From the IMG/VR virus record IMGVR_UViG_3300046787_000353, positions 64,001 to 98,455 of that record: a stretch of DNA of 34,455 bases; one strand, given 5' to 3'. Below, in pieces: positions 12,767 to 27,981 of this stretch. The notes below the pieces were generated by a model that was given only the letters and a program-made list of their open reading frames with translations, ran no database searches and was not told where the DNA came from. The stretch's first letter is position 1; each line of letters begins with the position of its first letter. The position numbers and the translations under genes were made by a program. The DNA is from a virus.

Positions 12767-12967
12767 TTATCTTCCTCTTCTTCTACGAAGTTCTGCCTCT
12801 TTTAAATATTCGGCAGTATATTTATTTTCTACTGAAATCGGTCCATTGGGATTTTTTTTCAAATCATATTTCCAAATTGATGTGCACCCCTCTTCTTCGA
12901 ATATGTATTCAAATTTTGTAGGTTTTACCGATTTACTATTATTTTCTTTAGTATTCTTTATTGCCAT
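12767..12967 (-). CDS. Uncharacterised 66-aa protein
   Basis: A small charged protein (MAIKNTKENNSKSVKPTKFE, then YIFEEEGCTSIWKYDLKKNP and an Arg-rich end ELRRRRGR). I chose the ATG at 12967, which overlaps the cupin gene by 20 bases. A frame extension up to 13018 would overlap it by 71 bases and adds residues that look unrelated. No family recognised. It is the second gene of the cupin unit. Confidence 0.6.
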   Translation of the reverse strand: MAIKNTKENNSKSVKPTKFEYIFEEEGCTSIWKYDLKKNPNGPISVENKYTAEYLKEAELRRRRGR

Positions 12968-13337
12968 GTTCCAAATCTTCCCAAGTATTTTTATAAATTC
13001 TATATGAATCCGAATCAAAATGTTCGGTACTCACTTCGAAAATAGTTGCGTTATCATCCAATGCAATAAGTTTATGCGGTGAACCTCTTTCGATATACAC
13101 TACATCCCCTTCTTTCAATGTCGTATAATTGCGTTTACCATTTTCTGTATCAATCCAATCATATTGAAATTCGCCACTCTGAACATACCACGTTTCATTT
13201 TTAATCATGTGATAGTGCATAGAGAAGTGATTTCCTGCTTTTGTAAATACTAAAAGTTTTCCACAATATTGAGAATCGTTATGAATCCACAACTCATATC
13301 CCCACGTTTTCTCTACTCTTCTAGGTTGTAATATCAT
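12948..13337 (-). CDS. Cupin, sugar-isomerase type (mannose-6-P isomerase-like)
   Basis: A 129-aa single-domain cupin. The N-terminal VEKTWGYELWI is typical of type II phosphomannose isomerase domains. Metal-ligand candidates are the two His of FSMHYHMIKNETWYV plus the following Glu, and the His of GSPHKL. The family includes mannose-6-P isomerases and sugar-modifying cupins such as those that make dTDP- or GDP-sugars; the exact substrate cannot be read from the sequence. It has its own promoter and sits next to the GHMP sugar kinase, so it probably works in the same sugar pathway. Confidence 0.8.
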   Translation of the reverse strand: MILQPRRVEKTWGYELWIHNDSQYCGKLLVFTKAGNHFSMHYHMIKNETWYVQSGEFQYDWIDTENGKRNYTTLKEGDVVYIERGSPHKLIALDDNATIFEVSTEHFDSDSYRIYKNTWEDLEHGNKEY

Positions 13338-13357: not shown

Positions 13358-13389
13358 CAAATATACATAAAATTATCCAATTTGCCAAG
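13358..13389 (-). promoter_or_regulatory. Bacteroidota-type promoter for the cupin gene
   Basis: On the minus strand, CTTG (13386-13389), a 20-base spacer, then TATATTTG (13358-13365): a full -7 box and a 3-of-4 -33 box. The -33 part lies within the last codons of the GHMP kinase gene, so there is no room for a terminator between them. Confidence 0.7.
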
Positions 13390-14404
13390 TTCTTAGCCCA
13401 AATTTATTAAAAGTAAATGGCTGATTGTATCCTATGTTCAATTTATCTAACTCCTTTATCACATTATACTTCGTATTATCGGGACAATAAAAGAATACAA
13501 ACCCACCACCACCGGCTCCACTTATCTTACCACCAGTTGCACCGGCATTAATAGCAGTATCATACATTTGTTGTATTTCAGGTGTAGTGATTCCATTTGC
13601 CAATAAACTTTTTTGTAAAAACCCAGCTGATAGATGTTCTCCCAATTCATTAATTTTACCTCTAAGTAAACAATCCTTCACCAACTTAGCCCTTTCAGCT
13701 ATCCAATGTAAAGATGTCATCGAAGTTTGGTTATCATCTTCTATATTTTTAACTTGCTGGTCTAACACATCTGAACTCCTTCTAGTAAAGTTTGTAAAAT
13801 ACAATACAATGTTATTCTCCAATTCATCTTGTACCTTATCCTTTATTCTTAATGGATTTACGATAACATCATCTCCTTTGAATTCCATAAAGTTCCATCC
13901 ACCAAACGCTGCGGCATATTGGTCTTGTTTACCACCACTTTCTCCCAATTCAACTCGTTCTATTTGAACTGCCATATCGGCAATATCATACTCGCCCAAT
14001 GGTAAGTTGAATAATTCCTGATAAACTCCGATTAAAGAAACTATTAAAGTGGATGATGTACCCAATCCACTCCCAGTAGGTACATCTTGATATGTAACTA
14101 TATCATAACCAATAGGTTGTAACTTAAAACGTTTGAATATGTGATTATGGGTTGCTTTAAACAACTTTAATCCATAAGAACAATCTAACTCATTTGAGAA
14201 TGAATGCTGCTCTCTTTCATCCTTATTTACCCATTCAAACGTAATGTTAGTATCATCTCTTAATTGTAGAGATGTATGAGTAAATAAACGTATTGTAGTA
14301 TTGATTACTGCTCCGGTATGATTTTTAGTGTAAGATGGAATATCAGTTCCCCCACCACCAAAACTAATCCTGAATGGGACTTTGCTCCTGTATATCTTCT
14401 TCAT
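13373..14404 (-). CDS. GHMP sugar kinase, D-glycero-D-manno-heptose 7-phosphate kinase-like
   Basis: Phosphorylates a sugar-phosphate at C1. GHMP motifs are SKVPFRISFGGGGTD (7-21), the ATP loop PTGSGLGTSST (109-119) and the C-terminal GATGGKISGAGGGGF (288-302). The N-terminal 'FRISFGGGGTD' block, the GGKQDQYAAAFGG block (157-169) and the length of 343 aa match HddA and related heptose kinases (fucose kinases look similar). It is the last gene of the long glycan operon, which should supply an activated sugar for the glycosyltransferases. A nucleotidyltransferase (6545-6973) and a HAD phosphatase (16218-16883) could complete the path; no GmhA isomerase is in the window. The start overlaps the HNH-like gene by 41 bases. 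Confidence 0.88.
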   Translation of the reverse strand: MKKIYRSKVPFRISFGGGGTDIPSYTKNHTGAVINTTIRLFTHTSLQLRDDTNITFEWVNKDEREQHSFSNELDCSYGLKLFKATHNHIFKRFKLQPIGYDIVTYQDVPTGSGLGTSSTLIVSLIGVYQELFNLPLGEYDIADMAVQIERVELGESGGKQDQYAAAFGGWNFMEFKGDDVIVNPLRIKDKVQDELENNIVLYFTNFTRRSSDVLDQQVKNIEDDNQTSMTSLHWIAERAKLVKDCLLRGKINELGEHLSAGFLQKSLLANGITTPEIQQMYDTAINAGATGGKISGAGGGGFVFFYCPDNTKYNVIKELDKLNIGYNQPFTFNKFGLRTWQIG

Positions 14405-14951
14405 CTGGTATTCCGTTTTCTGCTATCCAATTTTTAACATTTCTTTCACCAACTAATAGAAAGAAACAATTATAACAAAGTGCTCTAATGTTTTCTAATT
14501 TTCTATTATTAAGATTACCATCTAAAAAATCAATCAACAATGGCATTTTACCATCTGTGATACGTTCTTCGTTAAATCCACAACTACAACATACTTTTGG
14601 TAAATACCCACTATCAAATAATTTGTTTTTGAATTTGAATAAAGGATACTTTAAATGCTTTCCAGCAATTAAATCATCAATGTGATATTTTTTGTTTTTG
14701 ATTTTTTTGGCACGTTCGATGCCAATACCATACGGATTTTTTAAATCCTCAAAGATACCATATAATTTAGCATATTTCTTATATGTGTTATATGAAATAC
14801 CTAATTTTCTAGCTGCTTCAAACGCAGAACGTGATGTAGATTGTGCATCTTTGATTTGAGATTCTAATATAGGTTTAGCGCCTAATCCTCTCTTTGTTCC
14901 TCTCGGAATAATGTTGGGGAAGAACCCTTCATTTTCATTTTCGTTTTCCAT
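14364..14951 (-). CDS. HNH-like protein with degenerate metal site and N-terminal helix-turn-helix-like segment
   Basis: A 195-aa protein. After an Asn/Glu-rich start (MENENENEG, a short tandem codon repeat), residues about 34-66 (SQIKDAQSTSRSAFEAARKLG, then ISYNTYKKYAKLYG) look like a helix-turn-helix. The C-terminal half has CCSCGF, then LIDFLDGNLNNRKLENIRALCYNC. This is the HNH scaffold with two Cys pairs, but the usual first His is replaced (LIDF for L-x-HH), so catalysis may be lost or altered. Phage HNH-like proteins with this form occur widely as free-standing homing-type nucleases or DNA-binding proteins. The overlap of 41 bases with the sugar kinase is the largest between accepted genes here. 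Confidence 0.75.
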   Translation of the reverse strand: MENENENEGFFPNIIPRGTKRGLGAKPILESQIKDAQSTSRSAFEAARKLGISYNTYKKYAKLYGIFEDLKNPYGIGIERAKKIKNKKYHIDDLIAGKHLKYPLFKFKNKLFDSGYLPKVCCSCGFNEERITDGKMPLLIDFLDGNLNNRKLENIRALCYNCFFLLVGERNVKNWIAENGIPDEEDIQEQSPIQD

Positions 14952-14985
14952 ACCAATAACTATTTAGTTTATAGGTATAAGTATA

Positions 14986-15768
14986 TCAAATTAGTTTTAA
15001 AGGATAGATTTTGGATAAATATTTTAAAATAATTTCTGCAATTTTAATATTTCCCTCTATACCAGCGTGCCCATCCGATTTAATTCCAAGTTCATCCGAA
15101 ATAGTAAGGCCTGATTCCATAAACCACATATACATCTGTCTACCTTCAAACCAAACAAAATCAAAATTATTTTTATAATTAACTGAATTTAAAAACACTT
15201 GAAATCCGGCATTATCAATTATTATAAATTTTATATTTTGCATTTGCATAAATGAGAGTAGTCCTAAAAAATTATTCATACTCTTCTTTATTTCAATATC
15301 GGTATTTGTAAAATTATAAAATGAAGAAACTAAATCAGTATGAACTTTTTTCATATCCGATTTATCATTGCCACTAGCTATATCGGTTAAATCATCATCT
15401 GGAAATTTTATTGTTCCCCAAGTTACATTAATAAATCTATCCAATTTGTTTGAATAGATTTCATCTCTCCACCCCGGTGGAATTTCTAACATAAATAATG
15501 TATCTTTTAAATCAACTTGATTATCGTAGATATATTGGTAAGTTCTTCTAATTATCCTATTCAATGAACCGCCTGATTGTGAATCGTTGTGAATATTTAT
15601 GTTTAGCTTCTTTGCCACCACATTTGGATATGCATAATCTATATGATTTTCAATATCGATATTGAGTATATCTTTGTATTGCTGTCTAACATTTTCATAG
15701 TTGAATCCACCGGCACAACTAAAACTACATCCATTTGCGTATATTTTATTAAAAATAGGAGCTATCAT
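14986..15768 (-). CDS. SGNH/GDSL-type hydrolase, 260 aa
   Basis: Probably removes or transfers an acyl group on a carbohydrate. Block I is NGCSFS (12-17) with the likely nucleophile Ser15. SQSGGSLNRIIRR fits the Gly/Asn blocks, and DGHAGIEGNIKIAEII near the C-terminus supplies the Asp-x-His pair. No signal peptide is present. Its start overlaps the APS-kinase-like gene by 4 bases. It is one of three SGNH-like proteins in the window; with the glycosyltransferases nearby, glycan O-acylation or deacylation is the likeliest role. Confidence 0.75.
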   Translation of the reverse strand: MIAPIFNKIYANGCSFSCAGGFNYENVRQQYKDILNIDIENHIDYAYPNVVAKKLNINIHNDSQSGGSLNRIIRRTYQYIYDNQVDLKDTLFMLEIPPGWRDEIYSNKLDRFINVTWGTIKFPDDDLTDIASGNDKSDMKKVHTDLVSSFYNFTNTDIEIKKSMNNFLGLLSFMQMQNIKFIIIDNAGFQVFLNSVNYKNNFDFVWFEGRQMYMWFMESGLTISDELGIKSDGHAGIEGNIKIAEIILKYLSKIYPLKLI

Positions 15769-16214
15769 AGTATTAATTTAACCAATGTTGAAAATGTGGT
15801 ATCTGGATTAGAAGATGTATCTAAATTAACAAAAAATTCGGTAGGTGGTTCGTAATCTAATGCAAAGAAGTTTTCTCTACCTCTAATTTTTTTAGTATGG
15901 CAGTAGATTTCTGTAACATTGCATTCGGATTTAAAATTATTACGGAGTTCTTTGTAAGGTGCTACCAATGATATTACAACATCATTACCATTGTTATCTA
16001 AGAATTTAGCTATATCAAATGCTTTCTGAATATTTTTCTCCCTACCTTCTTTTGAGTAATCGGTATTTGGGAATAATTCTCTCAATTGGTCACCATCGAT
16101 ATGGAATACAGATTTTCTCCAATTTTTCTTATCAGTTTGTAACCATATTTGTAACTTCTTAGCCATAGTAGTCTTTCCACTACCAGGTTGACCTGTAAAA
16201 AGGTAAATTGCCAT
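15765..16214 (-). CDS. P-loop kinase resembling adenylylsulfate (APS) kinase
   Basis: A 149-aa P-loop protein: Walker A GQPGSGKTT (8-16), then HIDGDQLRELF (38-48) and the block REKNIQKAFDIAKFL, followed by VISLVAPYKELRNNF. These follow the order in CysC (DGDxxR, then R.ENI.R...A, then ISP...R). It is shorter than typical CysC (about 200 aa) and the end (EPPTEFFVNLDTS) still matches the family. If active it would make PAPS, possibly for sulfating glycans. The adjacent HAD phosphatase offers another reading: the pair could be a split version of the T4 polynucleotide kinase/phosphatase. I favour APS-kinase-like from the sequence. Confidence 0.75.
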   Translation of the reverse strand: MAIYLFTGQPGSGKTTMAKKLQIWLQTDKKNWRKSVFHIDGDQLRELFPNTDYSKEGREKNIQKAFDIAKFLDNNGNDVVISLVAPYKELRNNFKSECNVTEIYCHTKKIRGRENFFALDYEPPTEFFVNLDTSSNPDTTFSTLVKLIL

Positions 16215-16217
16215 AAC

Positions 16218-16883
16218 TTATTTTTTTGGTATCAACGATTTTAGTTTGTTTATGTTTGTTGATTTTGGTGCCTTTGGTACATCGTGCTGAACGTGTCTTA
16301 CTTTCAATGATATCTTTGGATATTTCTTTTCCAATGCCTTAACGGCTTGTACATTTTTATTAGAATCATCAATAAAGAACACATCGTTTGCTCCAGCTTT
16401 GATTTTATCTTCAATCCAATCTGCTTTCTTTTGTGGGTCGGAATCGGCTAATGCCACTACATATATGTTCTTCAAACCAATATCAGATAAATAATCCTTA
16501 ACCGGCTTATATGCTGCTCTTGCAGTCAATATGTAGATATCAGAGCCACCAACTCTTACGATATTTTTAAGTAATCTTGTAACTCCTTTTATTTCCTGTG
16601 GTTGGTTTACTTTTTGGAAATCCGAAAAGTCAAATTCATCTCCACTCTTTGGTTCATACACCGCGTATTCACCGGGAGTCAATTTTAGCTTTTTACCATT
16701 AGATTGAGTAACGTATATATGTGATACGGTCTGAACCAATGTATCATCAAAATCAAATACTCTAATTTTCTTTTCACCGGCTTCTTGCAATGGATTAAAT
16801 GCGAAAGCGTTCATATTGGAATATACTTTTCCAAATTCAACTTTCATTCCATTCCACATCCCAGATGTAAAGTTATTAACCAT
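16218..16883 (-). CDS. HAD-superfamily phosphatase
   Basis: A 221-aa HAD phosphohydrolase: motif I FDFDDTLV (Asp44, Asp46), motif II YILTARA (Thr120), a Lys at about 152-153 and motif IV FFIDDSNKN (Asp172, Asp173). The first 36 residues are an extra N-terminal segment. Similar HADs with 'LTARA...DSDPQKK..W' are common in T4-like phages, sometimes annotated as polynucleotide 3'-phosphatases. Two roles are possible: sugar-phosphate phosphatase (GmhB-like step in heptose activation) or nucleic acid end repair with the neighbouring P-loop kinase. Nothing in the sequence decides between them. Confidence 0.8.
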   Translation of the reverse strand: MVNNFTSGMWNGMKVEFGKVYSNMNAFAFNPLQEAGEKKIRVFDFDDTLVQTVSHIYVTQSNGKKLKLTPGEYAVYEPKSGDEFDFSDFQKVNQPQEIKGVTRLLKNIVRVGGSDIYILTARAAYKPVKDYLSDIGLKNIYVVALADSDPQKKADWIEDKIKAGANDVFFIDDSNKNVQAVKALEKKYPKISLKVRHVQHDVPKAPKSTNINKLKSLIPKK

Positions 16884-17199
16884 TTAATAATGCTTTTTTT
16901 GCTTTCGGTAGTGCTTTTTCTAACTTATCATTTTCTTTTGTAAGAAACTCTACTTTAACACTCAATGCTGCCACTTCTCTAGTCAATGCCAACACCATAT
17001 CTCTTAATGTATCCTTTTCTCTACCAGCTTCAACTAATAAGGCTTCTAATTTAGCGATACGGTCTTTGCAATCGTGTCGAATAAATTCATCATCTTTTTC
17101 TTTTCTTTGAGCTCTTTTCTCATAGTAACGAAATGCGGATGCTCCTCCTAACACAGTTATTGCTGTTATCATTACCGAATACATATTTTCCATATCCAC
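16876..17199 (-). CDS. Membrane-anchored coiled-coil protein, 107 aa
   Basis: A short hydrophobic N-terminus (YSVMITAITVLGGASAF, residues about 7-23) and then a long charged region with heptad-like spacing (DRIAKLEALLVEAGREKDTL, then VAALSVKVEFLTKENDKLEK). This suggests one membrane segment and a coiled coil. An i-spanin or a scaffold would fit; no family is recognised. The start is uncertain: GTG at 17199, which shares a base with the previous stop (TAGTG), or ATG at 17193. Confidence 0.6.
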   Translation of the reverse strand: MDMENMYSVMITAITVLGGASAFRYYEKRAQRKEKDDEFIRHDCKDRIAKLEALLVEAGREKDTLRDMVLALTREVAALSVKVEFLTKENDKLEKALPKAKKALLNG

Positions 17200-17603
17200 T
17201 ATTTTAATTTAGGTTCTCTTTCGCCATCGTTGCCATCCATAGCATCGTGTACTGAATTTAGGTTTTCCAAAGCGACTGTAAGTTGTGAATACATCCAAGA
17301 ATCCAACTCCTGTCCTTCTTTCATTCGAGTTTCAATCATATTCGCATAATCAGCGATTCTTTCCAAATTACCCATAGCCATTTCTTTCAAACCGGCTAAA
17401 GTTTCTTCGGGAGAGTTTTCATCACCTTCGTTCATTTTTTGTTTAAGTAGTTCAGTCATTTTATTAAATACCTGCTCTCCTCCATTTTCTCCAAAACGAT
17501 ATGCTCCGCCCAATTTCTCGTAAACTCTGATTTTCTTTTTCATCGGAATATCTTTCTCGTTTACAGCTTTCCAAATAGTTGGATGAGTTATTTCAAATTT
17601 CAT
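17199..17603 (-). CDS. Uncharacterised helical protein, 134 aa
   Basis: A soluble, mostly helical protein. The N-terminus MKFEITHPTIWKAVNEKDIP looks like a small structured patch, followed by charged helices. Near the C-terminus it reads MIETRMKEGQELDSWMYSQL, then TVALENLNSVHDAM. That 'LDSWMYSQLTVA..NLNSV' pattern recalls C-terminal segments of many aquatic T4-like phage proteins, which usually read 'L..W.Q.KIT.A..Y...V'. Function unknown. Its start overlaps the SGNH gene upstream by 4 bases. Confidence 0.65.
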   Translation of the reverse strand: MKFEITHPTIWKAVNEKDIPMKKKIRVYEKLGGAYRFGENGGEQVFNKMTELLKQKMNEGDENSPEETLAGLKEMAMGNLERIADYANMIETRMKEGQELDSWMYSQLTVALENLNSVHDAMDGNDGEREPKLK

Positions 17604-18283
17604 ATTAATTTTTTAGTATATTTTAATGGTTTACCCATGATTACATCATATAAATATTGAAAAAAAAATTCATGGCCGATTTTATTCAAATGTTTATCAG
17701 AATTAGTTACCCAAAATGATGAATTATTTTCAATTATCTCGTCCATTAAGCTATATCTACCATTAAATGTAATCATATTGGATTTATATTTCTTAGCAAA
17801 TTGCTCATTAAATTGGCTATATGCATATCTTTCAGTAGCGCTATCCAATTCAGCATCCAATGACCATATATAAAATTTTACATTTCTATTAGTTAAATAA
17901 TGTGCTATAAATTCAAATTTAATTAAATCCTGTCTGATATATTCATCCATATCCAATGATTTGAATTCAAAGAAAGTATTTTCTATTGTATTGAATCTAC
18001 TATCATCTCCTAAATGTATTGTAGTATTTTTAAAATGGTCTAATATTCTGTGATAGAATCCAATTCCAACTATTACAATATCACCATCTGTTATGGTTTC
18101 ATATTCTTTAAAAAATTTGTTTATAATTTCACCATTACAGCAACCAATCAATGAATGATTGATTAAATTCAATTCTAATTTTTTGGATAATAGCTCTGGC
18201 CAACTTTCTTCTATCTTAACCGAACCATCTGTGGTGAAATGTGTTGAAAACGAATCACCAAAAATAATCAAATTATTGTTCAT
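17600..18283 (-). CDS. SGNH/GDSL-type hydrolase, 227 aa
   Basis: Block I is IIFGDSFS (6-13), with the nucleophile Ser in GDS. The C-terminal NSDKHLNKIGHEFF has the Asp-x-x-His pair followed by the 'N..G' that is usual for this superfamily. IVGIGFYHR in the middle fits block III. It lacks a signal peptide, so it should act in the cytoplasm on a precursor or on virion glycans. It sits directly after a glycosyltransferase gene (1-base gap), so an acyl modification of the same glycan is the likely role. Confidence 0.78.
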   Translation of the reverse strand: MNNNLIIFGDSFSTHFTTDGSVKIEESWPELLSKKLELNLINHSLIGCCNGEIINKFFKEYETITDGDIVIVGIGFYHRILDHFKNTTIHLGDDSRFNTIENTFFEFKSLDMDEYIRQDLIKFEFIAHYLTNRNVKFYIWSLDAELDSATERYAYSQFNEQFAKKYKSNMITFNGRYSLMDEIIENNSSFWVTNSDKHLNKIGHEFFFQYLYDVIMGKPLKYTKKLI

Positions 18284-18284
18284 T

Positions 18285-19181
18285 TTAATTAATTTTATCT
18301 AACTCCGATTGAAATGCTTTATGAGCAATTTGTTTAAATTCTTCTTTCCTATCAATACGGCTTAATACTGAATCATAGTAAGTTCTATCTCTATATGCGT
18401 AGTTCTCACATACCACATAGTTCTTTAACTTAAATTGATAAATATTAGAATTTTTCTGATTTAGTTTTTCAATTCCCCACATTATAAATGTATCCTCTAC
18501 TCCATAATGCCCTAATGCTTCTGGCAATGGAACACTATCCAATAGTGCTTTTGATAAACAATTAAACCAACCACCGCCAAATTTAGTTTTAGGTTGCCCA
18601 AATATATCATTTGAAACTACTTCCACCTCAACATTACCAACTTCACCCGAATCTACGAATGGGTTATTTGTTTTACAATAATCCAATTGCTTATTCAAAT
18701 AATTTTGATTAACCAAACAATCCCAAGTGCTATCCCAATATCTAACTATTTCAGGTGAAATTATGTATTGATTGATATTATTTTCTTCAATCATATCAAT
18801 ACTACTCTCCATATAGTGTAAAACCTTATCATCAAAACATATATCAGTATCTAACCATATAAAATGAGTTGCATCTTTACATTCTAAATGGGCAAATCTT
18901 CTATGTGATACGCATCCCATAATATCATCCCTCATTTGAAACGTAGATTTACTAGCCCAATTTGTTAATGATTTTAATGCATAAAATTTATCAATAAAAA
19001 ATTGTTTAGTCAATTTGGAGTTCTCCCAATCAATTAAATAATCGGATGTTGATAGTGATATGTAAAATTCATAATTACTACCATTAACATATTTAGATGT
19101 TTTGTTTAAGTCTACCAACAACTTTTCCAAATCATCTATTTCGTGGGGTAAAATGAATACCGTTAATACTATTTTTTTCAT
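18285..19181 (-). CDS. Glycosyltransferase candidate, GT-A type with DTD motif, 298 aa
   Basis: Transfers a sugar from a nucleotide donor. A Rossmann-like start (KKIVLTVFI) is followed by the metal-binding motif FIWLDTDICF (Asp111, Asp113). Farther on, KFGGGWFNCLSKALLDSVPL and GHYGVEDTFIMWG are the acceptor-side motif seen in GT2-like enzymes (the 'ED' pair of the base). The donor and acceptor are unknown. Its stop region overlaps the next gene's start (19178-19181) by 4 bases in the same operon. Confidence 0.75.
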   Translation of the reverse strand: MKKIVLTVFILPHEIDDLEKLLVDLNKTSKYVNGSNYEFYISLSTSDYLIDWENSKLTKQFFIDKFYALKSLTNWASKSTFQMRDDIMGCVSHRRFAHLECKDATHFIWLDTDICFDDKVLHYMESSIDMIEENNINQYIISPEIVRYWDSTWDCLVNQNYLNKQLDYCKTNNPFVDSGEVGNVEVEVVSNDIFGQPKTKFGGGWFNCLSKALLDSVPLPEALGHYGVEDTFIMWGIEKLNQKNSNIYQFKLKNYVVCENYAYRDRTYYDSVLSRIDRKEEFKQIAHKAFQSELDKIN

Positions 19182-19936
19182 TTATATAATTTTTTTGTAA
19201 CTAAATTATTTAATTCTTCGTTTCTATCATATTGATGAACCAAAACGTATGGCGTATCACCATTCATTATTAAATCATTTTCGATTTTTAAATTCTGCGT
19301 AGTAGTTCCAACTTGCAATGCAAAATCTGAACTAATAGATATCTTATCTCGTATAAGTTGATTATGTATAATAAAGTTAAACGAACTTTGGTCGGTAAAA
19401 TGTCTTATATCACCTGATTGCGATACTAACCAATTTAACATTAGTAATTCTTTAACTGCTTTACACTTCCCAGCTATTACACCAACGTTTCCAATTGTGT
19501 TGGGTTTAATCCAATCCCAAAACATCGGTCCATATCCTTCGTGAATATTTTTATGTCCCCATGGCTCATTCTCGTATGTCACACATTCGGATGCGCAAAT
19601 GATTTCTGTTTTAAGATTTTCTGCCAACCAATCCGATGGATTTAATTGCCACACAATATCTCTAACATCCGTTGTGATAATATGATTCCACGTTCTATCG
19701 GTTGTATTTAAAAAATACCACATATCAATTAATCTTCTCATGTGAGGGTGTCCTTCCAATTCGGCACCATAACACTCCCATCCAAATGAAGAAAGATATT
19801 CTATTGTTTCATTTGGTATGTTATAACATATCATCACTTTATCACCACTAAACCCTGATTTGTTTAATGATTCAACATATATTTTAATCTTTTCTGGCAA
19901 ATAATTTGCTATTGCTGATATAACTAAGTCTTTCAT
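19178..19936 (-). CDS. Glycosyltransferase candidate with DVRD motif, 252 aa
   Basis: A GT-A-like protein. HIITTDVRDIVWQLNPSDWL carries the likely metal-binding Asp residues (Asp90 to Asp93) at the end of a beta strand, and GNVGVIAGKCKAVKELL resembles the region that follows the donor site. HVQ-like ends (YVLVHQYDR) fit a GT. I place the start at the ATG at 19936, which shares a base with the previous stop (TAATG). A longer form from a TTG at 19957 would overlap the previous gene by 22 bases. Substrates unknown. Confidence 0.72.
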   Translation of the reverse strand: MKDLVISAIANYLPEKIKIYVESLNKSGFSGDKVMICYNIPNETIEYLSSFGWECYGAELEGHPHMRRLIDMWYFLNTTDRTWNHIITTDVRDIVWQLNPSDWLAENLKTEIICASECVTYENEPWGHKNIHEGYGPMFWDWIKPNTIGNVGVIAGKCKAVKELLMLNWLVSQSGDIRHFTDQSSFNFIIHNQLIRDKISISSDFALQVGTTTQNLKIENDLIMNGDTPYVLVHQYDRNEELNNLVTKKLYK

Positions 19937-20682
19937 TATCTTCCGTATTTTTGCCAATCGTTATGTTTGAATAATCCCTCACCGTGTGCAACTCCTATAT
20001 TTTGTTGTTGAGCCCACCATTTAGATATGTTACCTTCCAAATCGATACCATCTCCGGCAAATTGTTTAACGGTATCTAAATAAAATTGTTTCTTATACAT
20101 AGTTGGATTATTAGTCCAATTGCCCCATCGAGAAGTTGTTACGAAGTAATCTCCCAAATACTGTATCTTATCGGGAAATTCAATTGAAGGGTCTAACCAA
20201 TGTAGTGAATCTAAAAGATGTGGCGAAGTGCATCCAATCTCATCATCATAATAATTCAATTCATTACCCTTGTGTCTAAATGAAAAATGTGGATGACCAG
20301 GTTGATTACGATGTCTATATCTAACGGCATCATATCCATTAACATCCAACATCTGAATACCCGTAAGTAATCTATCATAGGTAGTTTCTCTACTTTCAAT
20401 CAAATTCCAATCATGCTCTAATACCAATACATTATCAGTTTGTGCATTTTCAGTCAATCTAAGAAATGCTTTACCTATACCAATATTACTCTGTAATGCT
20501 ATAAAATCCAATCCAAAATGTCTTGCGATTTCTACATCTTGCATCGATGCTTCTTGAAACAGAATTGTAACATCATTTACAATATCAAATAATCCATTTT
20601 GGTGATAGGTAGTTAGTGTATCTACTAATACTTGCCCACTATTCCAAGCTAATATTCCAATACTAATTGGTAGTTTGTCCAT
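19936..20682 (-). CDS. Family 2-like glycosyltransferase, 248 aa
   Basis: The N-terminus (PISIGILAWNSGQVLVDTLT) is the classic GT2 opening. NIGIGKAF (about 66-73) and VLVLEHDWNL (86-93, Glu89-His-Asp91) fit the nucleotide-binding and DXD-like positions. The motif is EHD rather than DXD, a variant found in some phage GTs. Its start overlaps the next upstream gene (stop at 20663) by 20 bases. It belongs to the long glycan operon; the sugar is unknown. Confidence 0.78.
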   Translation of the reverse strand: MDKLPISIGILAWNSGQVLVDTLTTYHQNGLFDIVNDVTILFQEASMQDVEIARHFGLDFIALQSNIGIGKAFLRLTENAQTDNVLVLEHDWNLIESRETTYDRLLTGIQMLDVNGYDAVRYRHRNQPGHPHFSFRHKGNELNYYDDEIGCTSPHLLDSLHWLDPSIEFPDKIQYLGDYFVTTSRWGNWTNNPTMYKKQFYLDTVKQFAGDGIDLEGNISKWWAQQQNIGVAHGEGLFKHNDWQKYGR

Positions 20683-21310
20683 TTCTTAAATAATTTATAA
20701 AGTTTATTTGGTCTTGCTTCTTAACCTCATCCCATTGAGTTTCATCGGAAGTCGTGCTCATTTCAGTTTCTACTTTGAAATTTCTTAAAATTCCCTTTGG
20801 TGCGGGATTTACATCTTTAATGAAGTTATCACCATACCATATTTTAATGTTTTCTGGAATATTAATCCAATCTGATTTATGAAACATAATCATACATCCC
20901 CATCCCCAATCATTTACACCAGGTTGCCATTTATCTATATACGGCCCTTTGGTATCATCTATTGGATTTTTATAATTACCCTCACCCATTCCAATAATTC
21001 CAAATTCAGAAAATACTTCCGTATTTATTAAACCAAATATATTTGGGTCAAAGTTTATATCATCATTCAATAGAGCTATATGAGTGTTTCTAGCCAATTC
21101 AATTCCCCAATTCCATGCAGGATTTACATAGATGTTTTTACCAAATGAAACATGTCTAACTTTTTCTACTTTCCCATCCAATACATCTGTCAATTGATTA
21201 TTTATTACAATAATCTCATCTACATACTCACACTCATTTAAATCTGAAAGTAATTTTTTAGTTCTGTCTGATTTCCAAAGTGTTGGAATTACTATTGTAT
21301 ATTTATCCAT
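20663..21310 (-). CDS. Family 2-like glycosyltransferase, 215 aa
   Basis: Opens with YTIVIPTLWKSDRTKKLLSD and DEIIVINNQLT, the GT2 form. IALLNDDINF has Asn82-Asp83-Asp84 at the metal site, and WNWGIELARN before it fits the usual GT2 layout. YIDKW/DWGWGCMIMFHKSDW follows, where acceptor-binding residues normally lie. It overlaps the next gene by 20 bases and its own start overlaps the GT-B-type gene by 8 bases. Confidence 0.8.
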   Translation of the reverse strand: MDKYTIVIPTLWKSDRTKKLLSDLNECEYVDEIIVINNQLTDVLDGKVEKVRHVSFGKNIYVNPAWNWGIELARNTHIALLNDDINFDPNIFGLINTEVFSEFGIIGMGEGNYKNPIDDTKGPYIDKWQPGVNDWGWGCMIMFHKSDWINIPENIKIWYGDNFIKDVNPAPKGILRNFKVETEMSTTSDETQWDEVKKQDQINFINYLRNGQTTN

Positions 21311-22169
21311 TTATTTTATATTTTTCAAATTCACCAATTAACGTATCTACGACTTGTATTTGAGTATAATTGTGTAATACTTTTATCATACCATTATGAG
21401 CAATCCTTTCTCTTTCCTCTTCATTTTCATTGTAGTAGTTCATCTTCTCTATACAATCAAACATATCATTGTAGAAAACTATTTCCTCACCTTCTTTGAA
21501 TATAGATTGTAATTCGGTTGTAGTATTCAATCTATCAGTCAACACTAATTTACCACAAGCCATTCCTTCGAATATTCTACGAGTTATTTCACCCCATCTA
21601 CTATTCTGAATAACCATCAAACCACTATTCAAAAATTCAGTATGTTCTTTTGGCCCCATACCATTTTTATTACCAACGACACCTTCTGCCCATCTTGTGA
21701 GATAATCTAAAAAATCAGAACTACCTTGCCCACGTGTAGTAACTGCTACATACTTCGGCTCAATATTCATTGGATATTGAACTGCCGTATCGGCAAAGTG
21801 GTTTATCCACATAGCATTAATACCTCTTTTAATATATTCTTTACAACTTTCGGATGCGGGTGTGATTGTTAAATGGAATCGATTTGCTTTAGGATAGTTT
21901 CTTTCAAAATTTTGAGGGTCATCTCCACTTTCTTGTATCCAAAATGCAGGAACTAAATCTTTGTTTAAATATTGTGAATCAAATCTACCCCAATCCATAA
22001 ACAATACAATATCGGTTTGTGGTTTGGAATCTATCCAATTTCTTAAGTCTGAATCGTTTGTTTTTACAATTTGGGTTTCCCACCCTCTTTCTTTAAATTC
22101 GTTTACTAATGCCAATGGAGTAGACCACTCTTCGCCATCTTTGTAATCGTATATGAATGTTATTTTCAT
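21303..22169 (-). CDS. GT-B-type glycosyltransferase, 288 aa
   Basis: A GT-B enzyme of the 'Glyco_trans_1_2'/CgeB-like type: N-terminal Rossmann part (KITFIYDYKDGEEW), then GLMVIQNSRWGEITRRIFEG MACGKLVLTDRL, with the Glu pair (Glu194, Glu201) that binds the donor. FKEGEEIVFY follows as in the family. At 288 aa it is shorter than full GT4 enzymes. Its start overlaps the preceding gene by 4 bases. Confidence 0.8.
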   Translation of the reverse strand: MKITFIYDYKDGEEWSTPLALVNEFKERGWETQIVKTNDSDLRNWIDSKPQTDIVLFMDWGRFDSQYLNKDLVPAFWIQESGDDPQNFERNYPKANRFHLTITPASESCKEYIKRGINAMWINHFADTAVQYPMNIEPKYVAVTTRGQGSSDFLDYLTRWAEGVVGNKNGMGPKEHTEFLNSGLMVIQNSRWGEITRRIFEGMACGKLVLTDRLNTTTELQSIFKEGEEIVFYNDMFDCIEKMNYYNENEEERERIAHNGMIKVLHNYTQIQVVDTLIGEFEKYKING

Positions 22170-22825
22170 TTTGCGTATTCGTTTCTTTTAAAATTTACCA
22201 AATAATGATTTAGATTTTCTAAATTATATGGTGAGTATGGTTGCCAATCTTCTCCGTTTTGAATAAAATCCGTTTCTGCTTTTGTTCTACTTTTACGAAT
22301 ATTCTCTAACTTTAAAGTCTTAGCATACTTACCAGTCATCCACCAAAAATTACCAGAATATATTCTCCAATTTGCAATCGATGTAAATAATACACCATAG
22401 GTATTAAACTTGCTTCGTTTAAAAATATCAAATACATTTTGTACTTTTTCTATATTAAAGTAATTCATCAATCTTCTCCAAGATTCAATATTATCGTAAG
22501 CAGGTGTATCTATTTTAGATGCCCCCTTTGTATGAAGATACAAAATATAATCGGAATCTCCAAATTTTTGTATATCTTTTTCTATCAAATCTAACGTAAC
22601 AAATTCGTGTCCATTGCTCTGTATATCTCTCACTTTCCAATTTGGATTATCATATCTATTCAATTTTTTTAACATCCAATCAATTGACATGTTATCTTTT
22701 CCAATTGAAATTCCCACATTTAGAATATATGGAAAATTAAAATGAGCCTCTATCAATGATAGTTGCTCATTTATTATAGATTCAACACCTTCTACCGCAT
22801 ATATGTGATAATAGATGTGAACCAT
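22166..22825 (-). CDS. Glycosyltransferase-like protein with LHTKG motif, 219 aa
   Basis: The middle reads YILYLHTKGAS (93-103) followed by ESWRRLMNYF, then GVLFTS and SGNFWWMTGKYAKTL. 'LHTKG...SWR' and 'GNFWW' are what I know from RgpF-like and capsular polysaccharide glycosyltransferases. I set the start at the ATG at 22825, which shares a base with the previous stop (TAATG); a longer frame to 22891 lies inside the upstream gene and is rejected. Confidence 0.7.
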   Translation of the reverse strand: MVHIYYHIYAVEGVESIINEQLSLIEAHFNFPYILNVGISIGKDNMSIDWMLKKLNRYDNPNWKVRDIQSNGHEFVTLDLIEKDIQKFGDSDYILYLHTKGASKIDTPAYDNIESWRRLMNYFNIEKVQNVFDIFKRSKFNTYGVLFTSIANWRIYSGNFWWMTGKYAKTLKLENIRKSRTKAETDFIQNGEDWQPYSPYNLENLNHYLVNFKRNEYAK

Positions 22826-23448
22826 TATATAGTATCGTAATAATTGTTTTGTCGTTCTTGTCTTTCGATTGTCTTTGGATGCTGAATACAATATACCTCT
22901 TCTAATGGTAAATTCGTATAACTTTCAAATCCTACAATTCTCTCATGCACTTTACCACTCCATCCAATTTTATCGGAATTTTTGTAAATACGAGTTTGTA
23001 CATCTGGAAAGTTTACCCATCCGTTTTCGTTCACACTCCATCCCCATTTTTGAATATGAGCTTGGGTTAATCCTTCAACGGTATTGATACGTGGAACTAA
23101 GATAAGTTCTTTATCTGCGTTATTATCCAATATATCTTCTAAATTATGAATTAAATCATTCGATAAGAATTCATCCGCATCTAATTGGAATATCCATTCA
23201 CCTTTACATTGTGAATTTAATAAGTTCTTCCATTGTGCAAAATCTCCAGCAAATTCAGATTCTATAACAGTGATTTTATCGGCATTTGCTTGTAGTTCCA
23301 AATATTCGATTAATTCAGTCTGAGCTTTAGGTGTATCCAATAAAACTACAACCTCTGAATTTTCTCCTTTGTAGTTTAATAACTGATTGATTAGTCGTAA
23401 TGTTTCATCATATTCATTACATACTGTAATTGCGTAACTAATTTTCAT
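22825..23448 (-). CDS. Family 2 glycosyltransferase (WaaE-like), 207 aa
   Basis: ISYAITVCNEYDETLRLI opens like WaaE/SunS-type GT2 enzymes; GEWIFQLDADEFL (83-95, Asp90-Ala-Asp92-Glu93) is a canonical DXD with the trailing Glu. RIYKNSDKIGWSGKVHERI and the EEVYCIQHPKTIERQERQNN end are also typical of this subgroup. Heptose-linked LPS core glucosyltransferases belong to it, but the donor here is unknown. The start overlaps a small 50-aa gene by 11 bases. Confidence 0.85.
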   Translation of the reverse strand: MKISYAITVCNEYDETLRLINQLLNYKGENSEVVVLLDTPKAQTELIEYLELQANADKITVIESEFAGDFAQWKNLLNSQCKGEWIFQLDADEFLSNDLIHNLEDILDNNADKELILVPRINTVEGLTQAHIQKWGWSVNENGWVNFPDVQTRIYKNSDKIGWSGKVHERIVGFESYTNLPLEEVYCIQHPKTIERQERQNNYYDTI

Positions 23449-23590
23449 CTATTTCTAATTTAATTGTAGGAACATCATTTACTTGCTCCAATATTTCTTT
23501 AAGTTCATCCCATTGCTTCGGTGAAATATTATAATGATGTACCCCCATTGCGAATCCTTTCAACCAAATAACAAATTCTTGTGATGTCAT
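23438..23590 (-). CDS. Small 50-aa protein between glycosyltransferase genes
   Basis: An ATG ORF of 50 codons (MTSQEFVIWLKGFAMGVHHY, then NISPKQWDELKEILEQVNDV). The 'S..EF..WLKGF..G..........QW..LK..L..V' layout is a helical pattern I recall from small phage proteins; no function known. It fills a gap that would otherwise have no gene and overlaps the GT2 gene by 11 bases. Confidence 0.65.
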   Translation of the reverse strand: MTSQEFVIWLKGFAMGVHHYNISPKQWDELKEILEQVNDVPTIKLEIDEN

Positions 23591-23597
23591 AATGTAA

Positions 23598-23729
23598 CTA
23601 TTTATTTTTCTTTTTTAATTTTTGGATTTCTTTTTGAGTCTGAATCCGTTCTAACTGCGTAAGTTCATCGCATTTCCAACACCACTCTTTGTCGGTAGTA
23701 TCCCAATTATGTCTTTCGCATTTAGCCAT
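23598..23729 (-). CDS. Small 43-aa putative zinc-binding protein
   Basis: An ATG ORF of 43 codons (MAKCERHNWDTTDKEWCWKC, then DELTQLERIQTQKEIQKLKK). Cys4, His7, Cys17 and Cys20 form a CxxH...CxxC set that could hold zinc, followed by a basic helix. It starts three bases after the 144-aa gene's stop. Likely real given the spacing; role unknown. Confidence 0.65.
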   Translation of the reverse strand: MAKCERHNWDTTDKEWCWKCDELTQLERIQTQKEIQKLKKKNK

Positions 23730-23732
23730 AAC

Positions 23733-24167
23733 CTATTTTTTATGTGGAGGAGTTAGTTCCTCAATATCCATATTTAATTTGATTATTCTCCCCAATCCAC
23801 TCATCTTATAAGTTCTATAAGCATCATTTGTGATTACCGGTACTTTTGCTACAACCGATTGGTAGAATTTCTTAGCACCACCTTTTATTTGTAAAGAATT
23901 TTCATCCTCATCTACAAACTTACCAAAGAATTTTTTAATCAAATCAGGTCTAACATTACTAACCTTTACAGCATGAACTACATCTTTAGCTTTGGATACA
24001 AATAATGTATAGATGATGGGAGCGGTTGTTTCCGTAAACTTACCCTTCGTGCCATCTACATAATCATATTCTTTGATTAAATAGAAATTACCCCTAACCA
24101 TTTGATTAGGAGTAATTGCATGTTTCTCATCTATATACTTACCGTATACTCTATTATATGTTATCAT
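23733..24167 (-). CDS. Phage protein of unknown function, 144 aa
   Basis: A soluble alpha/beta protein: MITYNRVYGKYIDEKHAITP, then NQMVRGNFYLIKEYDYVDGT, TETTAPIIYTLFVSKAKDVV and AYRTYKMSGLGRIIKLNMDI. I have a recollection of this form in aquatic T4-like phages but no named function. It overlaps the GT4-like gene by 14 bases, within the glycan operon. It has no Cys, no membrane segment and no visible enzyme motif. Confidence 0.65.
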   Translation of the reverse strand: MITYNRVYGKYIDEKHAITPNQMVRGNFYLIKEYDYVDGTKGKFTETTAPIIYTLFVSKAKDVVHAVKVSNVRPDLIKKFFGKFVDEDENSLQIKGGAKKFYQSVVAKVPVITNDAYRTYKMSGLGRIIKLNMDIEELTPPHKK

Positions 24168-25434
24168 TTTTACTTAACATTTTCAATTTAGGTAACTGTA
24201 GTTGTTGAAACTTTGGTTGAGTTTTAGTATAAATACTATACTGATTTAAAATAGAATCAAACCCTTCGGTCATTTTTGATAAACTGAAATTTGCTAAGTT
24301 GTGTTTTCCTAATTTAGATGATTCGTTCTTATATTTATTATAATTCTTATAAACATCTTTGATTATAGGTAATGCTTTGGAAACATTTACATTGAACCAT
24401 TTAGCTTCTTTTAATAAAAATTGGTCAGCTGCCGATTCGTGTACTGCTTTCAATTCTCCTTCTAATAATACAGCCCCTTCTTTTAAGAAATCCAAATGCC
24501 CACTCCAATTAGAAACAATTACAGGCTTACCCGTCAAACTGAATTCTAATAAAGGTCTACCAAATCCTTCACCTTTTGTAAAGTTTAACATTGCTTTTAC
24601 CTTTGGATGTTCATATAATCCATTCATTTGAGATGGAGTTAAATCACCATGTAATAGATAAATTGGAACTGATTTATAATCGTTGCCCAATACTTCTCTG
24701 ATTTTCTTAATAGTGGCTTCTCTATCTAATACACTAAATCCAGCCGAAGATGTTTTTAAAACCAATGCAGGTTTTACTTTTTCATTCTTAAAAGCCATTG
24801 CGAATGTCTTAATCATCATTCCCACATTCTTTCTATCTTCACCCAAATCACCTCTTAGCCAATGTCCTACGAATAAGAATGCAAAATCTTCTTTGATTGA
24901 ATCCAATTCAGTTACATGTACCACTACATCAGTTCCGAAATCAAGTTCATCAAATCCTTCAAAGAGAACCTCTATCGGTTTTTGAATTTTATGCTGTGCA
25001 ATCAATTGTCCACTATTTCTATCCTGCTCATTATAAACAGAATCTACTAAACTCTTTTTAGAATGTTCGGATGGAACGATTAATAAATCCATTCTATTAC
25101 ATCCATGTACCCAATCCAATGCACAATGTGTCGTTTCAATTGCGGCAGTGATACCAATGTTGTAGTGCCCCAATGGTTGAAATTCATTTGGTACTGTGAC
25201 CTGAATGTAGATATCTGGCTTACTTTCTATTTTTGGTATAATACTATTAACTACCCATTTATGAAATTCGTTATCGTAATTAAGAGCATCCATTGGAGTT
25301 TGTCCCCAACGTGTACTAATTACTTTAATTTCGAATTTATCTAATTTATATAGTGAATGTAATAAGTCCCTAGCGTGGTCACCATATCCACTTCTCGTTG
25401 CTACCGGTCCTTGAAATACTAATGTCGGTTTCAT
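24154..25434 (-). CDS. GT4-type glycosyltransferase, 426 aa
   Basis: A full-length GT-B enzyme of the GT4 group. GPVATRSGYGDHARDLLHSL is the N-terminal glycine-rich loop of the family. FLFVGHWLRGDLGEDRKNVG opens the C-terminal domain, and the E-x7-E motif is GEGFGRPLLEFSLTGKPVI (Glu289, Glu297). It starts one base after the second GT4-like gene. Two adjacent full-length GT4 enzymes plus several small GT2 enzymes suggest that the glycan has several linkages. Donor unknown. Confidence 0.87.
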   Translation of the reverse strand: MKPTLVFQGPVATRSGYGDHARDLLHSLYKLDKFEIKVISTRWGQTPMDALNYDNEFHKWVVNSIIPKIESKPDIYIQVTVPNEFQPLGHYNIGITAAIETTHCALDWVHGCNRMDLLIVPSEHSKKSLVDSVYNEQDRNSGQLIAQHKIQKPIEVLFEGFDELDFGTDVVVHVTELDSIKEDFAFLFVGHWLRGDLGEDRKNVGMMIKTFAMAFKNEKVKPALVLKTSSAGFSVLDREATIKKIREVLGNDYKSVPIYLLHGDLTPSQMNGLYEHPKVKAMLNFTKGEGFGRPLLEFSLTGKPVIVSNWSGHLDFLKEGAVLLEGELKAVHESAADQFLLKEAKWFNVNVSKALPIIKDVYKNYNKYKNESSKLGKHNLANFSLSKMTEGFDSILNQYSIYTKTQPKFQQLQLPKLKMLSKNDNI

Positions 25435-25435
25435 A

Positions 25436-26818
25436 TTATAACTCTATTAACTTAAATTTTTGTTTTGGTTTCCAATTTGCGAAAGCTCCTTCCATACCAT
25501 CTACTAATGATTGGCACATAGCCTCTCTACTTAGTAATCCATCGCCTAACATCCATTTTCTACCTTTTTCACCTGCTATATCTCTATCTTCTTTTGGAGT
25601 TAAATACCATTCCATAATAAGTGGCGAAATATCTTCGAAATCAACTCTATCATCAAAAATATATGGAGTAGGAACTGAACCTGTTGTTGAACGTACTGGC
25701 CAAATTGGTTTAACCCAATCTCCCCATACTACACCGGCTTTTTTATGCTTATCATGCAATGAACCAATTTCAACATAATCTTCAGCGGTTAATAATTTAC
25801 CCGTTGCGATATCTCTGAATCCACATTGGTCTTGCATACCACCCGTTACATTTACAATGATTGGAGTTCCAGCCATTACCGATTCTGCGGTTGCTAATCC
25901 AAATCCTTCATTTGATGCCACATTGATTGTAACATCTCCAATGTTATAAAGATAATTCAATTCGGTTTCAGTATAACGATTTGGTGCAAATATCACATTA
26001 GTTTCAGGTGAACAACAATGTGCAATTGTAGTTGGTAAGTCTGTACCATGCTCTTGAATAGGTTCGGTGTGCATTAATAAACAAACCTTATCTCTTTTTT
26101 CCGGAGCAAGCGCGGCAACAAACTTATCAAATGCTAATATAACATCGATTGGTTGTTTTCTACGAATGTTTCTATTATTCCAATATAAAACAAATTCATA
26201 TTCTTTTTCTCCAAAGATACTTTTTTTGAATTCTTGCGGAACATCTACTTTTTTGTATAGGTCTGAATTAATACCATGTGGTACATAGCTTACTTGCCAA
26301 TCAGCAGGTGGTGTCCAATGTGATTCCTTATCCCACCCCCAAACTCTCTTAGTAATACCATAGGTTTGTTTTGAGATACATCCAATCCAATCACAACTTT
26401 CATAATAATTTCTATTATATTTTGGGTCTGGCAAATCATCCCAAATGTGATAAAAGAATAACGGAACTGATTGTCTAATTTCGTGTTCAATCTCATATAA
26501 CCAAATCCAATATCTTGGGTCTGTAAAGTGTAAGATTGCATCCGGCTTCTCAATCATTAATAATTGCCTAATTATATCAGCGTTTCCATACCCATCTGAT
26601 GGGTAGATTTTCACATTTGCATCCGATACGCCCGTTTGAGCACGAACATCATCGTTTAAATCTAAAACCTTACCTGCTTCTGGATGTTTGATTGCTGCCC
26701 CCAATTGAACCCAATCGTATTTGTCAACTGTTCCCATAACCAATTGTTTGGAAACGTTAGCGATACCACTCGCCATTCGTAAATCATCTGATAATAACAG
26801 AATCTTCTTTTTTGCCAT
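25436..26818 (-). CDS. GT4-type glycosyltransferase, 460 aa
   Basis: KILLLSDDLRMASGIANVSK is the start of GT4-like enzymes with their glycine/serine loop. EFVLYWNNRNIRRKQPIDVI marks the entry into the second domain and NEGFGLATAESVMAGTPIIV holds the E-x7-E pair (Glu304, Glu312). ILHFTDPRYWIWLYEIE and YHIWDDLPDPKYN are features of the acceptor side. It is the first large enzyme of the glycan operon, after the small 65-aa gene. Function as a sugar transferase is secure; the sugar is unknown. Confidence 0.87.
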   Translation of the reverse strand: MAKKKILLLSDDLRMASGIANVSKQLVMGTVDKYDWVQLGAAIKHPEAGKVLDLNDDVRAQTGVSDANVKIYPSDGYGNADIIRQLLMIEKPDAILHFTDPRYWIWLYEIEHEIRQSVPLFFYHIWDDLPDPKYNRNYYESCDWIGCISKQTYGITKRVWGWDKESHWTPPADWQVSYVPHGINSDLYKKVDVPQEFKKSIFGEKEYEFVLYWNNRNIRRKQPIDVILAFDKFVAALAPEKRDKVCLLMHTEPIQEHGTDLPTTIAHCCSPETNVIFAPNRYTETELNYLYNIGDVTINVASNEGFGLATAESVMAGTPIIVNVTGGMQDQCGFRDIATGKLLTAEDYVEIGSLHDKHKKAGVVWGDWVKPIWPVRSTTGSVPTPYIFDDRVDFEDISPLIMEWYLTPKEDRDIAGEKGRKWMLGDGLLSREAMCQSLVDGMEGAFANWKPKQKFKLIEL

Positions 26819-27068: not shown

Positions 27069-27932
27069 TTATTTTCCATCACAAATTCCTCGTTGTTTAA
27101 ATTCACACCAATCACATAGCTTTGATGGTCGTTTTGGATATTCCACATCGGTTCTATACGAACCATCTTCATTAAATACACTATCTACGAATTCGGTAAA
27201 TCCTTTCCATGCTTTATTCATAGATGGTTTACCGCTCGCAGGAACGTGTCTACTAATACGTGGGATATGGAAATCAGCCGTTTCCGATACTTTACGTTTT
27301 AGAATCATAAATTCAACATCAATCATATCAGGTGAAATACCTAATAATTCTGCGTAGAATTTTTTATATAATAAAATTTGTGAATTTTTAACCGGGTCGG
27401 TTTTCTGATATTTACCCCATCCTCTAGTGGATGTTTTGAAATCGGTAATACGATATCTACCAGTCGATTTGTTTCTAACAATAAAGTCAATAAATCCTAA
27501 AAAAGATACATTCTCACCTATCTTAGTATTGATAACTTGCTCAATTGCAACTAACTCATCATCTTTTAAAGAAAAAAAGTTGTTGAAATTTTTAGATTTC
27601 TGAAAGTAGTCTAAAATTAGATACCCATCTTCTAAAAACTCCACCAACTCTTCTTTAGAACATATCGGGTTTTGCCCATCGTTTGATTCCTTAATAAAGA
27701 ATTCTCTCATTTTTTCTTTAAGAAATTCTTTTGTATTCATATTCTTATCAGCTTGTGATTTGGATATGGTAAGACATCTACTTAGATACTCTTGTAAGGT
27801 TTCGTGCATCGCAGAACCAAACACCGAATGTATATTAGACGATGAATCTCTCAACTCATCTATGTAACTAAATTTGTATTGTTGTGGACAACTACTCCAC
27901 ATACTATATTGGGAAAATGAAACTCTAGCCAT
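27069..27932 (-). CDS. PD-(D/E)XK nuclease, RecB/Cas4-like with possible Fe-S cluster
   Basis: A 287-aa single-domain nuclease. GSAMHETLQ (39-47, His43), GFIDFIVRN (146-154, Asp149) and RITDFKTS (161-168, Asp164 and Lys166) are the PD-(D/E)XK motifs, with Gln185 in QILLYKKFYAE as the QxxxY-type motif. Cys15 (SSCPQQYKF) and Cys273, Cys276, Cys284 (CDWCEFKQRGIC) have the spacing of the Fe-S cluster in AddB and Cas4-like nucleases. It likely processes DNA ends in recombination or repair. It is the first gene behind the promoter at 27950-27981 and heads the glycan operon rather than the replisome unit. Confidence 0.87.
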   Translation of the reverse strand: MARVSFSQYSMWSSCPQQYKFSYIDELRDSSSNIHSVFGSAMHETLQEYLSRCLTISKSQADKNMNTKEFLKEKMREFFIKESNDGQNPICSKEELVEFLEDGYLILDYFQKSKNFNNFFSLKDDELVAIEQVINTKIGENVSFLGFIDFIVRNKSTGRYRITDFKTSTRGWGKYQKTDPVKNSQILLYKKFYAELLGISPDMIDVEFMILKRKVSETADFHIPRISRHVPASGKPSMNKAWKGFTEFVDSVFNEDGSYRTDVEYPKRPSKLCDWCEFKQRGICDGK

Positions 27933-27949
27933 TACTTATATTGTTTATA

Positions 27950-27981
27950 CAAATATACAACTTTTATTTCATTATTCCAAA
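27950..27981 (-). promoter_or_regulatory. Bacteroidota-type promoter for the nuclease/glycan operon
   Basis: On the minus strand, TTTG (27978-27981), a 20-base spacer, then TATATTTG (27950-27957), a full match to the -33/-7 pattern, 17 bases before the ATG. No terminator lies between it and the end of the clamp-loader gene. It may start a transcript running 14.5 kb to 13373. Confidence 0.78.

Follow-up and report, generated by a model that had tools for sequence, protein, structure and literature searches.

Most of the large phage gene clusters for glycan synthesis described so far come from cyanophages, and the usual interpretation is that they modify the host surface. P-SSM2-type cyanophages carry a 15-gene glycan cluster (PMC7824862), and Synechococcus phage SynMITS9220M01 also harbours a glycan cluster. 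For moraphages, freshwater Bacteroidota jumbo phages, four core families (orthogroups) of glycosyltransferases (GTs) are reported, with their function left open (PMC12619734). The chlorovirus capsid protein acquires its glycan, which has a conserved core, in the cytoplasm (PMC7826918). The DNA analyzed here, a stretch of 34,455 nucleotides (the window), comprises bases 64001-98455 of the 98,455-base IMG/VR virus record IMGVR_UViG_3300046787_000353, which is probably a fragment. At 13373-26818 it harbours a run of genes with nine GT candidates (Table 1). Comparison with relatives revealed a constant core, exo-GT4-GT4-g144-GT2 (exo being an exonuclease gene), beyond which GTs and sugar-modifying enzymes form a variable cassette. 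The core is shared by hundreds of phage contigs from freshwater.

Scanning with GT4a yielded 564 stretches of viral contigs, of which 80 were kept; the loci were thus selected by GT4a similarity, which inflates the conservation of GT4a itself. GT4a and GT4b were separated by few bases in all 72 loci measured. Genes were counted in those 24 loci that extend 9 kb or more downstream; loci end at 10 kb, so that counts for distal genes are lower bounds. GT4b, g144, GT2_DADE and GT_EHD were each present in all 24 loci, GTB288 in 22, g220 in 17, GT2_NDD in 16, GT_DVRD in at least 12 and GT_DTD in at least 7. When wider regions were inspected, GT_DVRD and GT_DTD were present in all eight relatives examined. 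Alternative forms of GT_DVRD (32-38% identity) occupy the same slot in relatives, and the variable slots of relatives, which lie between the core genes, hold a nucleotide-diphosphate-sugar epimerase, C- and O-type methyltransferases, a 2-oxoglutarate oxygenase, a hexapeptide acyltransferase, additional GTs (GT2 enzymes among them) and a HAD-nucleotidyltransferase fusion. The conserved feature is the slot architecture rather than its exact content: the two GT4 genes, GT2 and g144 are kept while the tips are swapped.

The exo-GT4-GT4-GT2 order, sought in other phages, was found in these viral loci and is common to Flavobacterium phage immuto (Immutovirus) and phage Mel-JY01, in which other cassettes follow. 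Their GTs share 39-55% identity with those of the window (64% over one GT4a piece), the GT2_DADE homologue of immuto being at 55%. The immuto cassette differs in carrying a WecE aminotransferase, a WcaG epimerase and a methyltransferase, and the DNA polymerase annotated in immuto belongs to family A, whereas that of the window phage belongs to family B. Apart from a GT2_NDD-like gene in Mel-JY01, neither phage recognisably shares the distal small GTs. A g144 profile search found no homologue in immuto or Mel-JY01; immuto has a 152-residue gene at the g144 position. The GT4a homologue of Mel-JY01 (PP395634.1) is annotated as two adjacent open reading frames (83441-84013 and 84024-84932), a split which suggests a frameshift or sequencing error.

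The locus resembles the cyanophage clusters (P-SSM2, S-SSM7, SynMITS9220M01; PMC7824862) in its T4-like setting, many unlike GTs, cupin, sugar kinase and polymorphism between relatives. A nucleotidylyltransferase of the HldE/tagD type is common to both, as is the cupin. The cyanophage clusters carry one to four NAD-dependent epimerase/dehydratase genes, whereas none was recognised among the window genes scanned; in relatives, such genes occupy the same slots. The sugar kinase is HddA-like (GHMP) in the window and PfkB in the cyanophage clusters. Unlike the cyanophage clusters, the locus appears to belong to a Bacteroidota phage, its GT4-GT4-GT2 core is anchored to the exonuclease gene and its precursor genes lie in two slots. 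Moraphages are likewise freshwater Bacteroidota phages with a family-B polymerase and several GTs; an operon, a variable cassette and a kinase/nucleotidylyltransferase pairing are not described for them in the available part of PMC12619734. A sequence-only reading of the window had called the number of GTs high for a phage. This is only partly right, in view of the P-SSM2-type 15-gene cluster, the SynMITS9220M01 cluster and the four moraphage core GT families. Large cyanophage glycan clusters and moraphage core GTs were already known; the present comparison adds a core of fixed order whose cassette is exchangeable, seen throughout a large freshwater group and in cultured phages, and a co-inherited precursor pair.

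The run is co-directional and tightly packed, with all genes on the minus strand. ATGA or TAATG overlaps occur at at least six junctions and most other junctions have gaps of at most 3 bases; the only large gap (284 bases) contains two small open reading frames (50 and 43 residues). Checks of strand, junctions, families and folds confirmed the nine head-to-tail GT candidates of the sequence-only reading. Three score above Pfam cut-offs and one just under, one belongs to a PHROG family, one has a confident and one a weak fold match, and two are identified by motif and context. Sequence families back five of the nine, none of the nine was contradicted, and neither families nor fold predictions placed most of these proteins outside the GTs. 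Two AlphaFold models were built on shallow alignments (mean pLDDT 69 and 58), with significant fold matches from the second alone. The fold search with g220 gave weak matches to GT-A and nucleotidyltransferase folds (E 2e-3). PDB sequence searches with the profiles of the four unassigned GTs and GTB288 gave no significant match. Among solved structures, the best match to GT4a is Glycosyltransferase B736L (3oy2/3oy7, E 1.6e-10), a chlorovirus GT. The differing families and folds support the earlier proposal of unlike GTs in a multi-sugar glycan pathway. Profile-profile comparisons linked none of the small GTs to each other, in agreement with the earlier remark that they are not recent tandem copies, though the shallow alignments make these comparisons weak and uninformative.

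Glycan genes extend past the run, with a cupin and an HldE-like nucleotidylyltransferase that the sequence-only reading had not listed. The nucleotidylyltransferase lies 6.4 kb from the HddA-like kinase, with unrelated genes between. The nucleotidylyltransferase was found in all 21 dereplicated contig clusters with the kinase versus 1 of the 25 without it (Fisher P 3e-12, a value inflated by shared ancestry); inside the close group the association has a P of 2e-8. Because the two genes are jointly gained or lost in two separate slots, the expected signature of a common function, they probably belong to one pathway. The association of the cupin is weaker (counted before dereplication). That two genes lying apart are inherited together predicts one specific activated sugar, for which the HddA-like and HldE-like genes suggest a heptose. 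The kinase, earlier called a heptose-kinase-like GHMP protein, matches the HddA model over its full length with 334 bits, below the curated cut-off of 600.

By hydropathy, none of the enzymes encoded in the run is predicted to have a transmembrane segment. Flippase, polymerase, ligase and phosphoglycosyl transferase were not recognised in it by family scans and hydropathy, unlike in Wzx/Wzy O-antigen clusters with their flippase and polymerase membrane proteins. A run with neither transmembrane segments nor recognised membrane-step enzymes is compatible with a cytosolic acceptor. The locus resembles chlorovirus virion glycosylation, with virus-encoded soluble GTs acting without membrane-bound steps, a conserved core and B736L as the nearest solved relative of GT4a. 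Chloroviruses differ in being eukaryotic viruses with the major capsid protein as acceptor, and their homology to the window GTs is at the level of the GT4 family only. A cytosolic, phage-made acceptor is favoured because of the lack of membrane steps, the constant core and the similarity of GT4a to B736L. Our preferred reading, held tentatively, is that a cytosolic pathway builds a glycan on a phage-supplied acceptor, most likely a virion protein. We infer an order of sugar addition in which GT4a, GT4b and GT2_DADE, with g144 and GT_EHD alongside, probably build an invariant inner oligosaccharide on this acceptor. Outer sugars specific to each lineage would be added afterwards by the exchangeable GTs and sugar-modifying enzymes; one of these sugars may be of the heptose type, with the HddA-like kinase and the HldE-like nucleotidylyltransferase as its activating enzymes. 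Such an outer layer would differ among relatives, as expected under selection from hosts or competitors.

Several points weigh against this reading. Comparable cyanophage clusters have been interpreted as modifying host-surface polysaccharide (PMC7824862). Cytosolic GTs also make lipid-linked O-antigen, for which carrier and flippase could come from the host, and the adjoining phage outer-membrane protein suggests that the phage alters the host surface. Alternatively, the pathway may act during infection to make or cap an O-antigen or capsular polysaccharide of the host surface, the changed receptor blocking competing phages or freeing progeny. We regard this explanation as a serious one, if somewhat less probable. 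The cyanophage clusters so interpreted share cupin, nucleotidyltransferase, epimerase and GT content with the locus (PMC7824862; SynMITS9220M01), the cassette is polymorphic between relatives and a predicted outer-membrane barrel is encoded next door. However, a lipid-carrier initiating enzyme, flippase, polymerase and ligase were all unrecognised in a run that encodes no transmembrane protein, and phages whose hosts presumably differ share one constant core, whereas the surface glycans of hosts vary. The virion has only a modest edge over the host surface, whose remodelling is a close rival. The cultured phage immuto, growing on Flavobacterium (sp. LMO8), carries the core GTs and makes the acceptor question directly testable.

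The core adjoins replication genes, and hypermodification of DNA by viral GTs is known (Pyle et al. 2024, as cited in PMC12619734). The GTs might act on hydroxymethylated bases of phage DNA, as in T4, with the extra GTs lengthening the chains. This is disfavoured and appears very improbable, as the thymidylate synthase of the window retains the canonical PFNIAS motif, the only thymidylate-synthase-superfamily protein of the record being a canonical ThyA, and the Pfam scan of the run gave no match to the T4 AGT or BGT families. Moreover, two relatives (G001, 202 kb, and G005, 199 kb) keep the GTs and have no thymidylate-synthase-superfamily protein, and would therefore lack any known type of base hydroxymethylase; other routes of base modification were not searched. 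Equally improbable is that the product is a small glycosylated metabolite or a sugar conjugate, soluble or secreted, that decorates no surface. Enzymes of these classes are also found in secondary-metabolite clusters, and cyanophages have a second type of cluster that has been so read (PMC7824862), but no scaffold enzymes for polyketides, nonribosomal peptides or ribosomally synthesized and post-translationally modified peptides were seen in the window, which has many GTs and few tailoring enzymes.

Acylation of the glycan, also proposed earlier, is plausible given the SGNH genes and the hexapeptide acyltransferase of a relative; both SGNH assignments are motif-based (best Pfam E 0.086) and SGNH1 is found in a minority of relatives. 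The run further contains four non-glycan or no-family genes beyond those listed previously (HNH, the coiled-coil gene, g134 and g144). The HAD, APS-kinase-like, coiled-coil 'hol-like' and HNH genes are better read as phage backbone. HAD and the APS-kinase-like gene are each present in 44 of 46 contig clusters, the latter including 23 of the 25 without heptose kinase. Backbone status of HAD, APS-kinase-like and HNH genes is indicated because they are kept in relatives without recognised GTs, namely the distant group L336-L354, in which most of these GTs are unrecognised; the group may hold GTs too divergent to see, some members showing a 27-29% match to GT_DTD. The suggestion of a perhaps sulfated glycan is unsupported: the APS-kinase-like gene is independent of the cassette and Pfam scans of the run gave no sulfotransferase family match. 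The APS-kinase-like protein has a P-loop and a DGD motif, yet is shorter than true APS kinases. In relative G003 a 187-residue protein between GT4b and g144 (L106:6846-7409) has an N-terminus that looks sulfotransferase-like by eye, a likeness unconfirmed by Pfam, which gave no match. A recent homing insertion of the HNH gene was ruled out, its relatives (51-90% identity) lying in the same place.

Table 1 Features of the glycan locus and its surroundings (window coordinates)
Feature	Position	Strand	Assignment	Evidence
HldE-like	6545..6973	-	HldE/RfaE-domain-II-like nucleotidylyltransferase	TIGR02199 E 2e-16, below cut-off
Cupin	12948..13337	-	WbuC-like cupin, possible sugar isomerase	family matches
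HddA-like	13373..14404	-	GHMP heptose-7-phosphate kinase-like	NF049969 E 1.6e-99
HNH	14364..14951	-	HNH endonuclease-like, probable backbone	phrog_10822/14736
SGNH1	14986..15768	-	candidate, variable	GCSFS/DxxH motif alone
APS-kinase-like	15765..16214	-	P-loop kinase, probable backbone	PF01583 above cut-off; PDB APS kinases E 5e-13
HAD	16218..16883	-	probable backbone, resembles phage polynucleotide-kinase phosphatases	phrog_415 E 3e-8
'hol-like'	16876..17199	-	coiled-coil, probable backbone gene, not glycan	phrog_2658
g134	17199..17603	-	phage backbone gene, not glycan	comparison with relatives
SGNH2	17600..18283	-	hydrolase or acyltransferase candidate, variable	GDSFS/DxxH motif; sub-threshold PF13472
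GT_DTD	18285..19181	-	GT-A candidate	WLDTD/WLDSD metal motif and context; no family
GT_DVRD	19178..19936	-	GT-A, GT8/GT6-like, variable	fold search: 226 PDB matches at E<=1e-3, best 2e-7
GT_EHD	19936..20682	-	GT-A candidate	invariant LEHDW motif and context; no family above cut-off
GT2_NDD	20663..21310	-	GT2-like, variable	PF00535 22.5 bits vs 23.3 cut-off
GTB288	21303..22169	-	small GT-B	PF13524 E 5e-24, above cut-off
g220	22166..22825	-	small probable GT-A enzyme, variable	invariant HTKGAS motif in alignment; weak fold match
GT2_DADE	22825..23448	-	GT2, core	PF00535 43 bits, above cut-off
g144	23733..24167	-	conserved protein within core	present in 24/24 loci; no family match in Pfam/PHROG scans
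GT4b	24154..25434	-	GT-B family-4, core	phrog_2170 glycosyltransferase E 2e-20
GT4a	25436..26818	-	GT-B family-4, core	PF00534 above cut-off
exo	27069..27932	-	PD-(D/E)XK exonuclease, constant upstream neighbour	<=400 bases from GT4a in 79/79 loci
Promoter-like site	27950..27981	-	Bacteroidota type, TTTG-N20-TATATTTG; candidate start of whole transcription unit	17 bases upstream of exo
Three similar promoter-like sites	9097-9128, 12735-12766, 27950-27981	-	TTTGG-N19-TATATTTG	upstream of GroEL, outer-membrane gene unit and exo

The source appears to be a T4-like phage, because the neighbouring genes encode a family-B DNA polymerase, clamp loader, PD-(D/E)XK exonuclease, endolysin and GroEL. It is a large freshwater (lake-water) phage, presumably lytic. 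A Bacteroidota host is indicated by the promoter-like sites, the immuto homologues and the Chitinophagaceae relatives of the outer-membrane protein. Promoter-like sites of the type TTTG-N-TANNTTTG sit just upstream of exo, of a small open reading frame preceding the outer-membrane protein and of GroEL; none of these three strong intergenic sites falls within the GT run. Strict matches in the window number 6 versus 1.8 expected. Counterparts of the three sites are present in relatives, G005 carrying a sequence identical to that at exo. Judged by the polymerase, 'Microcystis' phage Mel-JY01 (48%) is the closest phage with a name. As a similar promoter-like site precedes the GT4 gene of Mel-JY01, the cyanobacterial host given for this phage may be worth re-examining; in relatives and promoter-like sites it resembles Bacteroidota phages. 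The thymidylate synthase gene of the window (1531-2625, minus strand), with a canonical active-site motif, encodes a protein that exceeds the family model by about 90 residues, and was not found in the close relatives searched.

At 9176-12451 (minus strand) the window encodes a 1091-residue outer-membrane protein resembling TonB-dependent receptors (Oar-like). It has an N-terminal signal-peptide-like sequence and CarboxypepD_reg and OMP_b-brl_4 domains; a domain scan did not detect a plug domain. Its gene is not linked to the heptose kinase (P 0.76). Relatives occur in 79 viral loci, on contigs of up to 321 kb and in several different gene neighbourhoods. In a quick tree Chitinophagaceae bacteria and phages are interleaved, with at least three label changes, and the bacterial copies adjoin ordinary bacterial genes. 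Within a limited open-access collection, nothing directly relevant was found on phage-encoded TonB receptors. We consider it speculative, and on balance doubtful, that this widespread freshwater group of Bacteroidota phages combines a chlorovirus-like, self-contained cytosolic machinery for a virion glycan of conserved core and variable tip with, in some members, installation of a TonB-receptor-like protein in the host. If true, both particle and host surface would be remodelled by the same phages. An iron-related theme beside the receptor-like gene is possible. The window encodes a 4Fe-4S ferredoxin-like protein (6240-6548), and in relatives the slot after HNH holds IscU-like (NifU_N) and IscA-like Fe-S assembly proteins (L091:2587-2997, L114:18383-18706).

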